From: Erysipelotrichaceae bacterium
Lineage (GTDB): Bacteria; Bacillota_I; Bacilli_A; Erysipelotrichales; Erysipelotrichaceae
DNA: 64,000 bases
Assembly: GCA_017539025.1 (NCBI GenBank)
Contig: JAFYHT010000071.1
Span: forward strand, 1 to 64,000
Direction of reading: 5' to 3'
Positions 14,063-23,691 of this stretch are shown here, piece after piece. Each line of letters opens with the position of its first letter. Within the stretch, counting starts at the first letter, position 1. The notes beneath the pieces were generated by a model that ran no database searches, was not told the origin of the DNA, and was given only the letters and a program-made list of their open reading frames with translations. Made by a program: the position numbers and the translations under genes.

Positions 14063-14791
14063 TCACGCCATGTACCTGTCATATTTTGAGACTTTGCCTA
14101 CAACGTAGTTTGCTGCGATAAACAGCAGTGCGATAAAGATCATGAAGAGATAGTTCTCGGTGAAGACCTGCAGTGTGGCGATATAGTCATAGAGCCCATG
14201 TAGAAGGATCGGTACCAGCAATGCCAGCACTTTGCATCTTGAGGAAGCCATGCCATCACCATAGACTTCATACAGTTTGGCAGCGGAGTAGAATACTCCC
14301 ATAAAGACACCAAATGAGGCATGTCCCGGAATCGCCGTAATGGCTCTGACGATAGCTGTCGGAAGCCCGAAATTCAATACATAGGAGATGTTTTCCCACA
14401 AGGCAAAGCCCAGCGAAACGAATACCGCATAGATCACGCCGTCAAAGACACAATCGAATTCCGATGAGTTCCAGCTGTTCTTTTTCAGAAGATAGTACTT
14501 GGCTCCTTCTTCGGAAATACCTACGACAAGGAAATAAAGCAGGATCCTGTAGACCTCGGAAGAAGGATCGAAGATCTTTCCAAGAAGCGTGACCAGGATC
14601 TTTTCCGAAATCATGGCGATCAGTGAAGAAAAGATACCGGCCTTGACCAGATTCCACAGGAACCTTCCGTTTTCTTTCTCCAGCTTGTCCTTACGGTAGA
14701 TCCTGACCATCAGAAAGATCGCAGGAACAACTGCCGAGATGATCAGGATGACATTGAATTTCATGATCGGTGTCAACAGATAATAAAACAT
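14063..14791 (-). CDS. PrsW-family intramembrane metalloprotease
   Basis: 242 residues with about seven hydrophobic segments. Motifs of the PrsW/Abi superfamily are present: EEGAKYYLL (paired glutamates), FALWENISYV, AIPGHASFGVFMG and LLHGLYDY. PrsW proteases cleave anti-sigma factors or other membrane proteins within the bilayer. No sigma or anti-sigma pair is in the window, so the target is unknown. It has GGAGG seven bases before its ATG and lies 9 bases after the amidotransferase-like gene, in a three-gene operon. Confidence 0.88.
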   Translation of the reverse strand: MFYYLLTPIMKFNVILIISAVVPAIFLMVRIYRKDKLEKENGRFLWNLVKAGIFSSLIAMISEKILVTLLGKIFDPSSEVYRILLYFLVVGISEEGAKYYLLKKNSWNSSEFDCVFDGVIYAVFVSLGFALWENISYVLNFGLPTAIVRAITAIPGHASFGVFMGVFYSAAKLYEVYGDGMASSRCKVLALLVPILLHGLYDYIATLQVFTENYLFMIFIALLFIAANYVVGKVSKYDRYMA

Positions 14792-14800
14792 GATTACCTC

Positions 14801-15499
14801 CTATTTTTCACAGGCTTTCATGAACGATTCAAAAAGCCTGTCAACATATTCTTCTTCCATCAGTTCCGGATGCCACTTGATCCCCATGGCAAACTTCTTA
14901 TCCGGTACTTCGTAACATTCTATCAGTCCGTCATCTGATCTCGCAGTGATCTTTGCGAAAGGTCTTACCCTTTCTTCATCGGCGATCATCGTATGGAAGG
15001 AATTCACTCCATAATCCTGAGATCCAACGAATTCATATAATTTTGAATCCTTTTCGATCCTGATGTGATGACGATAGTTCCGATCATATACCGCATGTCT
15101 GCCGCTCTTATCTTCATAGACATTGGAACCCAGTGCTCTTAGGATGTTGTTGAAACCTGCACAGATGCCAAAGATCGGCATATCCTTTTCCAAAGCATAT
15201 CTTGCGATCTCTTCCTCATAGGCATAGCTGTAGTCTCCGCCTTGCAATATGATCCCGTCGCACAGATCGACCTGTCTGTGAAGATCATCCTTTTCTTCTT
15301 CACTCAATCTCTTGGGATCTCCCAGATCGCTTTCATTGAAACTGTATGTCAGCTCACTTGGTAACAGCATGATGGCGATCCCGCCATGCTTGATGATGTT
15401 GTATCTGATCTCATCCACCATTTCCTGACGACGCCACAGATCGTTGTCCACGATCCTGTTTCTGATCTTTGATGGTATTCCAATAATTACTTTTTTCAT
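14801..15499 (-). CDS. Class I glutamine amidotransferase-like hydrolase (gamma-glutamyl-GABA hydrolase, peptidase C26)
   Basis: 232 residues from ATG at 15499; the longer open frame upstream is antisense to the divergent lipoprotein. The fold is that of PuuD: GIILQGGDYSYAYEE, the nucleophile Cys in PIFGICAGFNNILRALG, NSFHTMIAD and the His-Glu pair in GIKWHPELMEEE. Such enzymes hydrolyse gamma-glutamyl bonds of small molecules in the cytoplasm. The partners in the operon (PrsW, iron alcohol dehydrogenase) do not point to one pathway. Only an AGAAAG-like ribosome site is seen. Confidence 0.88.
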   Translation of the reverse strand: MKKVIIGIPSKIRNRIVDNDLWRRQEMVDEIRYNIIKHGGIAIMLLPSELTYSFNESDLGDPKRLSEEEKDDLHRQVDLCDGIILQGGDYSYAYEEEIARYALEKDMPIFGICAGFNNILRALGSNVYEDKSGRHAVYDRNYRHHIRIEKDSKLYEFVGSQDYGVNSFHTMIADEERVRPFAKITARSDDGLIECYEVPDKKFAMGIKWHPELMEEEYVDRLFESFMKACEK

Positions 15500-15602: not shown

Positions 15603-16646
15603 ATGAAAAAAATATTGATTGTATTATTCTCGCTCCTGATGGTATTGTCTCTGTGCGGATGCCAGAAGGTCAAAGAAGAAAAAACTGAAGAAACAGAAAA
15701 AATCAGCGAAGAAGAGATCGCCGAAGCCGAAAAGGAACAGATCTCCATCACGATCGACCATGGCAATGGCGTCACAAAAGACTTCAGTATCAAGTCTGAC
15801 AGCGATCTGCTGATGGATGTGTTAAGCGGCATCAAAGCGACCGGAATGCTGGAATACGAGATCAAAGGATCAGATATCCTTTCCATGGATGGCTTTGAAT
15901 CAAGCAACGAATCCAGGTGGGTCCTCTATATCAATGATGAAGCCTATGAAGGAGACATTGAGAAGATGAAGTTCCAGAAAGGCGACAAGATCGTCTTTGT
16001 CTATGAAGCAGCAGCGATCGAAACGATACCTCAGCTCTTAGGCGGATGGCTGATCAACGAAGACTATAAAGAAAAACTTTCTGACGAAGAAAAGAAGATC
16101 TTCGAATCCATCACCTCTGAAGTGATCGGCGTCAGCTATATCCCTGTCAGAGTCCTGGCGACACAGGCAGCCAGCGGCGTAAACTACGCCTATCTGGCAC
16201 AGGGCATCAGTATGACAAATCCTGTCGAACTCAACTACTACATCATGGTGGTATACAAGGATCTCGATGGCAGCTGCGAAGTCAAAGCCATCAACAAGAT
16301 CGATATCCCTGACATGATGACGATGGAAAATTCCGATCCTGTATTCCTGAGATCCTGGATGGTCATCAAACCGGATGAGAAAGACACACTCAAAAACAAG
16401 GAAGTCCTCAAGAGCTTCAACAAAGCGATCGAAGGACATGACGGACTTGTACTGACTCCGATCGAACTCCTTGCCAGCCAGCTGGTATCCGGAACCAACT
16501 ACATCGTTCTGTGCCATGGCGAGACTGTGACACTGGATCCGGTATCGGATCTCTACATCGTAGAATGGTACGAAGACCTGAATGGAAAGTGTTCCATCAC
16601 CCGTATCGAAAATCTGAATCTTCAGTATTACGTTGCCGGAGAATAA
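15603..16646 (+). CDS. Lipoprotein with DUF4430-like domain and two cystatin-like segments
   Basis: 347 residues from ATG at 15603 (AAGGAG nine bases upstream; TATAAT at 15568-15573). A lipoprotein signal ends LSLCGC (lipidated Cys about residue 19). A Glu/Lys-rich linker is followed by a beta-grasp region like DUF4430 (about 45-135). Then come two related segments, each with an early helix and a motif resembling the cystatin QxVxG loop: LATQAASGVNYAYL (about 190) and LASQLVSGTNYIVL (about 295). True cystatins read QVVAGTNY and inhibit papain-like cysteine proteases. The protein is outside the membrane; inhibition of host or bacterial proteases is a hypothesis. Confidence 0.8.
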   Translation: MKKILIVLFSLLMVLSLCGCQKVKEEKTEETEKISEEEIAEAEKEQISITIDHGNGVTKDFSIKSDSDLLMDVLSGIKATGMLEYEIKGSDILSMDGFESSNESRWVLYINDEAYEGDIEKMKFQKGDKIVFVYEAAAIETIPQLLGGWLINEDYKEKLSDEEKKIFESITSEVIGVSYIPVRVLATQAASGVNYAYLAQGISMTNPVELNYYIMVVYKDLDGSCEVKAINKIDIPDMMTMENSDPVFLRSWMVIKPDEKDTLKNKEVLKSFNKAIEGHDGLVLTPIELLASQLVSGTNYIVLCHGETVTLDPVSDLYIVEWYEDLNGKCSITRIENLNLQYYVAGE

Positions 16647-16651
16647 GCATG

Positions 16652-16680
16652 AAGACCTCTTAAAAAGGGAGGTCTTTTTT
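16652..16680 (+). terminator. Terminator of the lipoprotein gene
   Basis: AAGACCTC and GAGGTCTT around a nine-base loop, followed by TTTTTT. A TATACT -10-like box for the next operon lies immediately downstream (16684-16689). Confidence 0.85.
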
Positions 16681-22555: not shown

Positions 22556-23647
22556 TCAGGACTCTTTTGAATAATCCTCCAGTTCTTTCATAAATGATTC
22601 TTTATCAAAAGCACCAGTCACGATCCATTCTCTGATGGAAGGAAAGAGCCTTTCCTTGGAGAACTGCGGATACAGCTTGCGCACATCTTCATCACTGAAT
22701 TCATAAACGAGCTGTCCGTCTTTATAGATACCGTTGTTATGGCAGAAATGATAAGGGATGTATGAACTTAAAAACTCACGCTTGTTTTCAATGCCGCACT
22801 CACTCAGATGATGATAGATCCTGAAGAAACTCTGTAAGGATATGATCAATGTGAGAAGGTTGCGCGATTTCTCATATGTGTGACCTTTCTTGGTTTCAAG
22901 AGGGGCACCATCAAAGACATCAAGGATCTCTTCTTCGTTTTCAATGAGAAATCGGCGGTACTCTTCAGAACGCCACTTTCTTTCCGTGATGATGTGATGA
23001 ACGATACTTCGATAATCCGGATGATGAAGGATGGTCTGGGAGATCGCCTTTTCTTTCAACAGATTGAAAGAAACGATGTCTTCCTTTCTGGTATCCATCA
23101 TATATCTCAGATTGCCAAGGATGATGGTGTTGAAATGACGGTTCTCACAACATTCGTTGATCGCGCCGATCAGTTCGACCATGTTCATCGGACAGCGTTC
23201 CATATCATCAAAGACCAGTATCGCTTTTCTTTTTCTGTGGGTGATGTGATCTTCGAACTCCGGTTCAATACTGATCAGATCCAGTATATTCATTGAAGCG
23301 ACGACATCCGCCGAATTGCCGATGACCGGGCTTACCTTTTTGATCAGTGAATTGAGTATCGCAAAAAAAGCGGGATTCTTCTTAACGACCTCTGATCTTT
23401 CACTGAGTGCGTTGGTGAAAGGATAACAGACCGACAGCCATTTCTGACGTATGTTGTTCTGCAAAGAGACGATATCTCTGACACCGAAAAGCGAAACTCT
23501 GACGATGGCATAATCCGGACCCAAAGCATCAGGAAGATCGTGTTCGATCATGTATGTCTTTCCCGATCCCCACTCGCACGTCAGAAGAAGTGCACCGATC
23601 GGATCAGATTCTTTACAATAGTGAACAAGTTCATCAAGTGTGTTCAT
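22556..23647 (-). CDS. KAP-family P-loop NTPase
   Basis: About 363 residues from the ATG at 23647 (GGGGGT eight bases upstream); an ATG at 23662 is the alternative. Walker A is CEWGSGKTYMI (about 24-34) and Walker B is ILVFDDMERC, followed by a segment LGNLRYMMD typical of STAND/KAP ATPases. KAP proteins usually carry membrane helices inserted in the P-loop domain and include phage-exclusion factors such as PifA; I see no strong membrane segment here, so it looks like a soluble version. No partner effector is adjacent apart from a broken small gene. Function unknown; defence is one possibility. Confidence 0.75.
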   Translation of the reverse strand: MNTLDELVHYCKESDPIGALLLTCEWGSGKTYMIEHDLPDALGPDYAIVRVSLFGVRDIVSLQNNIRQKWLSVCYPFTNALSERSEVVKKNPAFFAILNSLIKKVSPVIGNSADVVASMNILDLISIEPEFEDHITHRKRKAILVFDDMERCPMNMVELIGAINECCENRHFNTIILGNLRYMMDTRKEDIVSFNLLKEKAISQTILHHPDYRSIVHHIITERKWRSEEYRRFLIENEEEILDVFDGAPLETKKGHTYEKSRNLLTLIISLQSFFRIYHHLSECGIENKREFLSSYIPYHFCHNNGIYKDGQLVYEFSDEDVRKLYPQFSKERLFPSIREWIVTGAFDKESFMKELEDYSKES

Positions 23648-23691
23648 ACTCAATACCCCCATCTGAGAACAGCCAATCAGAATACCGGATC

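Follow-up and report, generated by a model that had tools for sequence, protein, structure and literature searches.

Does a lipoprotein gene from an Erysipelotrichaceae bacterium encode a surface-anchored cystatin and, if so, whose proteases might it meet? Inhibitors of this kind are seen as belonging in essence to eukaryotes, and their presence in bacteria is patchy. The gene lies in a stretch of 64,000 nucleotides (contig JAFYHT010000071.1, positions 1 to 64,000), which we call the window. The initial annotation described a lipoprotein with two tandem cystatin-type segments, and the lipobox and both loop motifs (QAASGVNY and QLVSGTNY) are all present. QLVSGTNY differs from the cystatin loop QVVAGTNY at two positions, as had been stated, and QAASGVNY differs from it at four. 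From sequence comparisons and a predicted structure, we consider the product to be probably a cell-surface, lipid-anchored putative inhibitor with two cystatin-fold domains. The gene, its parts and its neighbours are the following:

15603..16646, + strand: complete gene for a 347-aa lipoprotein (signal peptide, DUF4430 and two cystatin-like domains); ORF and translation
15603..15662, + strand: signal peptide and lipobox LCGC with the lipidated Cys20, from the sequence (MKKILIVLFSLLMVLSLCGC)
15663..15734, + strand: Glu/Lys-rich flexible spacer (pLDDT <50 for residues 19-40)
15735..16016, + strand: module like DUF4430 and the transcobalamin beta domain (near-threshold PF14478 match, homologues, VIA)
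16038..16304, + strand: cystatin-like domain 1, GGW opening kept, loop QAASG (V->A); family profile E 3.1e-32, fold
16164..16187, + strand: L1-loop motif QAASGVNY, residues 188-195 of the translation
16350..16619, + strand: cystatin-like domain 2, loop QLVSG intact, RS in place of the N-terminal GG; family profile E 5.5e-32
16479..16502, + strand: L1-loop motif QLVSGTNY, residues 293-300, at the beta2-beta3 hairpin tip in the model
16651..16677, + strand: terminator-like hairpin directly 3' of the gene, an 11-pair stem and T tract (3 such hairpins in the region versus 1.2 expected)
14801..15487, - strand: divergent neighbour, Peptidase_C26 of the glutamine-amidotransferase class (PF07722, 3.4e-26), outside the system
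14063..14791, - strand: neighbour, PrsW-family membrane protease (PF13367, 8.8e-32), outside the system

Signal peptide and lipobox are intact, as in bacterial lipoproteins, and C20 is invariant in an alignment of 25 homologues. Orthologues of full length (43-61% identity) are found in five genomes of the genus. The tandem repeats cover residues 146-234 and 250-339 (repeats of about 105 aa). Both had been described as opening near a Gly-Gly-type turn; this holds for the first (L-GGW) but not for the second, which reads RSW and has lost the Gly-Gly that most relatives retain. N-terminal to the repeats, at about residues 45-138, the PF14478 model scores 22.7 bits, just below the Pfam cut-off of 23.8; it matches 14 of 25 homologues (best 2e-9). 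In the full AlphaFold2 model this domain resembles the beta domain of transcobalamin and intrinsic factor (VIA Z 12-13). By profile and by this beta fold it belongs to DUF4430. The likeness to transcobalamin is one of fold and concerns this N-terminal domain; the alpha-barrel domain of transcobalamin is absent from the window protein.

Are the two C-terminal domains related to cystatins by descent? Individual sequences fall short of the Pfam Cystatin cut-off (PF00031: none of the single sequences reaches it, best E 0.024, with matches in seven of 100 domains), and no protein of the bacterium's own genome scores above it; for this reason the family is unannotated, missed by both Pfam and NCBIfam. 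Other candidates from Pfam, NCBIfam and single-domain scans (DUF1292, DUF4494, HTH_6 and AphA) stayed below their cut-offs, were inconsistent among homologues and were set aside as chance matches. The sub-threshold scores would suit a convergent origin, in which an unrelated alpha+beta repeat arrived at QxVxGTNY by chance. Family profiles argue against this. We used an alignment of 55 domains gathered by whole-protein similarity (A2) and a broader one of 100 domains (A4), and compared both with 177,635 distinct PDB sequences, listing matches with E<=10: cystatins account for 11 of the 12 matches of A2 (best E 0.009) and for all 17 of A4 (best E 0.001), and the A4 alignments span the GGW opening, the helix, the loop and the last strands. 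As a yardstick, E is no better than about 0.02 when a genuine tick cystatin fragment is matched to human cystatin C. By hhalign, the probability for A4 is 93.3% against stefins and 94.9% against tick cystatins (from the GGW opening through the last strand), and 0.1% against the DUF4430 profile, which served as negative control. A search with a cystatin profile HMM, suggested in the initial annotation, stays below the cut-off for single sequences, while the broader family profile (A4) reaches cystatins alone in the PDB; the comparison points to a statistically supported sequence relation to the cystatin superfamily (I25).

Structure prediction agrees independently. For domain 2 we used a model of the domain alone, because the Foldseek and VIA lists of the full model are partly taken up by DUF4430 and ubiquitin-like matches. 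AlphaFold2 modelled it with pLDDT 93.1 and pTM 0.82: a helix (17-27) is followed by four strands (33-46, 48-59, 66-75 and 81-88), and the first hairpin (beta2-beta3) carries QLVSG at its tip. Of the cystatin fold that had been named as the check, the helix packed on a sheet and a cystatin-dominated list of neighbours were recovered, but four strands were modelled, the first strand being short or absent. The top VIA match is SQAPI (Z 8.0), followed by Affimers, cystatins E/M and C, CRES, multicystatin and tarocystatin; monellin is found too. These neighbours have Z 6-8, mostly with rmsd 2-3.5 A over about 70-80 residues; Z values <8 are modest and by themselves not decisive, yet the neighbour list appears coherent. 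The fold as predicted is that of cystatins, a long helix on a 4-5-stranded antiparallel sheet. Foldseek gives E 0.01 for the single domain and nothing below 0.001, which again leaves something to convergence, but with all the evidence taken together we regard chance resemblance as very improbable indeed. Homology of the two C-terminal domains to cystatins and stefins, in fold and in ancestry, is supported by sequence profiles, profile-profile comparison, the predicted fold and the conservation of the loop.

Homology leaves the function to be weighed. The domains may be cystatin homologues that were reused as non-inhibitory binding modules, in a surface adhesin or a ligand-capture lipoprotein whose DUF4430 domain perhaps binds a small ligand. 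The transcobalamin-beta fold of that domain (with the high Z given above) fits this idea, as do the varied architectures of the family (Lipocalin_4, DUF4367 and Hint partners), the degraded inhibitory elements of the window copy, and the fold itself, which is common to Adhirons/Affimers and monellin. A mere scaffold, though, would have no need of Q and G of QxVxG or of the N-terminal Gly (91-95%), all of which are conserved; on this ground we think such reuse unlikely. In known cystatins, the QxVxG-loop and N-terminal Gly positions are protease contacts. Within A2 the conservation is 100% for G48, 96% for N50, 95% for Q44, and 91% each for V46 and the N-terminal G, at a mean column identity of 41%; over the family (A2 and A4), Q of QxVxG is kept in 95-100%, V in 91-96% and G in 100%, and the N-terminal G is found in 95 of 100 domains (A4). 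Since the GTDB loci described below were recruited by motif, a further count was restricted to those partner domains, 64 in all, that lack a match to the search pattern, and 60 of these have Q-x-V-x-G. The motif is therefore not a chance occurrence: Q44, V46 and G48 lie far above the mean column identity, and nearly all of the unselected domains keep it. Judged from these alignments, the protease-contact positions of known cystatins rank among the most conserved of the family. In the second hairpin, where type-2 cystatins have Pro-Trp and stefins Leu-Pro, the family has VYxDLxGN, which resembles stefin VFKSLPGQ and has no Pro-Trp.

The window copy itself is mildly eroded, each domain retaining one of the two best-conserved elements. 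Domain 2 (QLVSG) follows the QxVxG pattern, domain 1 (QAASG) not strictly, owing to a V->A change that is common to the closest orthologue (L009); conversely, the N-terminal glycine is present in domain 1 (LGGW) and absent in domain 2, where L009 has KS for Gly-Gly. Going by cystatin C mutants, loss of such elements may lower affinity, so the window protein may bind less tightly than its relatives do. Elsewhere in the same genome there is a second cystatin-like lipoprotein (L105:6045-6392; G000:C59:164038-164283, - strand), a single-domain protein of 111 aa with QIVSGTNY and an intact LGGF opening; its motif is better preserved than that of the window copy.

How widespread is the family, and where does it live? 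Relatives were found in 26 of 61 close genomes by whole-protein search. The A2 profile detected them in 67 of the order's 294 genomes, every carrier belonging to one family; in a sample of 392 genomes from across the phylum it detected two carriers, both members of the window's genus. A single-sequence search of genome contigs with the window protein returned no relatives, whereas a tighter alignment (A3) succeeded. A conserved pattern of nine residues, scanned against GTDB genomes, hit 309 stretches, 276 of which encode relatives, so that public genomes hold at least 276 such stretches. The best 80 of these were retained; they encode 81 proteins, mostly lipobox-bearing (71 with two domains, nine with one and one with four). 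By the submitters' titles, these best 80 loci belong to Erysipelotrichaceae, Lachnospiraceae and other Clostridia, and Coriobacteriia, with single loci elsewhere (one in Desulfosarcina). A ruminant label is attached to 57 of the 80 (35 by host name and 22 from the RUG/RUI series, which we take to be rumen genomes), a raw count with no background share. The window's source bacterium is probably a ruminant-gut dweller. In a tree the labels interleave (7 changes versus a minimum of 2); we do not claim gene transfer between phyla, because 93 columns resolve little.

If the family does inhibit cysteine proteases, as we infer from its conserved loop, whose proteases would these be? One candidate is the producer's own secreted enzymes, the inhibitor then serving self-protection or regulation. 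C1A peptidases are enriched among carrier genomes of the order (12 of 67 carriers versus 13 of 227 non-carriers, Fisher p 0.004, phylogeny not corrected for), which leaves some room for such a role. But no C1A peptidase was detected in the window's own genome, where we found only a PepC-type C1B enzyme, presumably cytoplasmic, or in 55 of the 67 carriers (82%), so self-protection is not general; the adjoining proteases, moreover, are limited to the unrelated C26 hydrolase and PrsW. We hold restraint of the producer's own proteases to be quite improbable. As most carriers have no C1A peptidase of their own, the target is probably external: a ciliate, microbial, plant or host protease.

The PrsW and C26 neighbours had been remarked upon as proteolysis-related but divergent. 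They are present and divergently transcribed, but this is not a proteolysis operon. Downstream of the gene lie a phosphoribosyltransferase and two purine-pathway genes. The four closest orthologues (L087-L090) still have C26, PrsW and the purine genes around them in this arrangement, and other relatives do not. With the order lost outside these four, the location of the gene carries no functional message, and the gene is probably transcribed alone, because the terminator-like hairpin follows directly. On both grounds a functional link to PrsW or C26 was rejected. Further along the window (22556-23662, - strand) we recognised by eye an ORF like KAP-type P-loop NTPases (EWGSGKTY), a class known from membrane-associated or defence contexts.

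Several known systems bear on the proposal. With the cystatin/stefin superfamily (MEROPS I25, PF00031; Dictyostelium cystatin A2, tick cystatins, stefin A) the family shares the fold, the order of elements (N-terminal Gly, helix, QxVxG hairpin, last hairpin), the loop Q and G, and profile similarity; it differs in being lipid-anchored, usually with two tandem domains and sometimes fused to DUF4430, and in its GGW opening, its DLxGN second hairpin and its sub-threshold Pfam scores. Plant multicystatins, with up to eight domains per chain, also carry tandem domains in one chain, but they have more of them and no lipid anchor; the domain pair of our full model matches two domains of potato multicystatin (4lzi) with Z 8.3 over 157 residues (rmsd 6.5 A). 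SQAPI, the squash aspartic proteinase inhibitor (PF16845, weak Pfam matches, best 0.0015), inhibits pepsin-type aspartic proteases, an example showing that targets can shift; cysteine proteases are favoured here because QxVxG is conserved. In the parts of their paper considered here, Kordis & Turk 2009 (PMC2784779) report bacterial cystatins/stefins found in silico, propose them as a defence against host proteolysis, place Firmicutes stefins in class Clostridia only (a very limited distribution), and note a triplicated-domain fusion protein in Polaribacter. Those parts likewise concern the bacterial cystatin superfamily and do not describe two-domain lipoproteins of Erysipelotrichaceae or Coriobacteriia. 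In the literature searched we found no experimental test of the defence proposal; nor do these sources seem to describe the lipid-anchored family of two-domain proteins with DUF4430, how large it is or where it lives.

On the inhibitor reading, the N-terminal Gly segment, the QxVxG loop and the second hairpin would together make up a wedge. When a papain-like (C1A) or legumain-type (C13) protease reaches the cell surface, this wedge would plug its active-site cleft and so protect the Gram-positive cell, or the proteins it exposes, against cysteine proteases from outside; two domains would provide two binding sites. The initial annotation had named host cathepsins or gut proteases as targets. 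What it said of structure, namely two cystatin-type domains on a lipoprotein, is borne out by profiles, fold and loop conservation; the DUF4430 domain and the wider family had gone unmentioned there. As to targets, given the ruminant-gut sources, host cathepsins would be no likelier than the proteases of rumen ciliates, plants or competitors. In this habitat the likeliest protease sources would be bacterivorous ciliates, rumen microbes, ingested plant tissue and the host. In the rumen ciliate Entodinium caudatum, 41 C01A and seven C13 transcripts are expressed, cathepsins B and F among them (PMC6925433); for rumen bacteria, cysteine peptidases have been named the major peptidase type (PMC6908469). 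Against inhibition we count the loop and Gly losses of the window copy, the DLxG second hairpin, the modest Z and E values and the C1A enrichment in carriers. A bolder version is conceivable but doubtful: ruminant-gut bacteria of several phyla would bear surface tandem cystatins as an anti-predation shield that blocks ciliate cathepsins and legumains upon engulfment or exposure to secreted proteases, the genes maybe having been acquired there from eukaryotes and spread among bacteria. A gut-bacterial family of this kind could guard cells against digestion and, being large, loop-conserved, lipid-anchored and mainly from the ruminant gut, it makes the role of bacterial cystatins directly testable. 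If it blunts ciliate or plant proteases, it would have a bearing on bacterivory and rumen nitrogen loss, and small inhibitors of cysteine proteases would be readily obtained from it.

The family also occurs in other forms. Small secreted single-cystatin genes with no obvious lipobox (L067:3246, 6593, 9390; L068:6506-7340; L069:3449-4258; L073:5200, 10603) come as nearly identical duplicates or triplicates, spaced by anything from a few hundred bases to about 5 kb; when we looked beside these genes of related genomes for a protease partner, the neighbours seemed unrelated, apart from a subtilase-like gene at one locus. Cystatin domains are fused to DUF4367-like or Lipocalin_4 modules at six loci (C-terminal halves at L071, L075, L101 and L103; also L072 and L148), so the family appears to mix with several lipoprotein domains. 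A 611-aa protein (L099:5636-7468, genome G019) has one cystatin domain, then a Listeria-Bacteroides repeat (Flg_new, 3.7e-14) and a weak Hint match, which suggests an autoprocessed surface protein. In a rumen Bacillota genome, a lipoprotein of 505 aa (L176:5767-7281) has four cystatin-like domains and is a bacterial analogue of the plant multicystatins.
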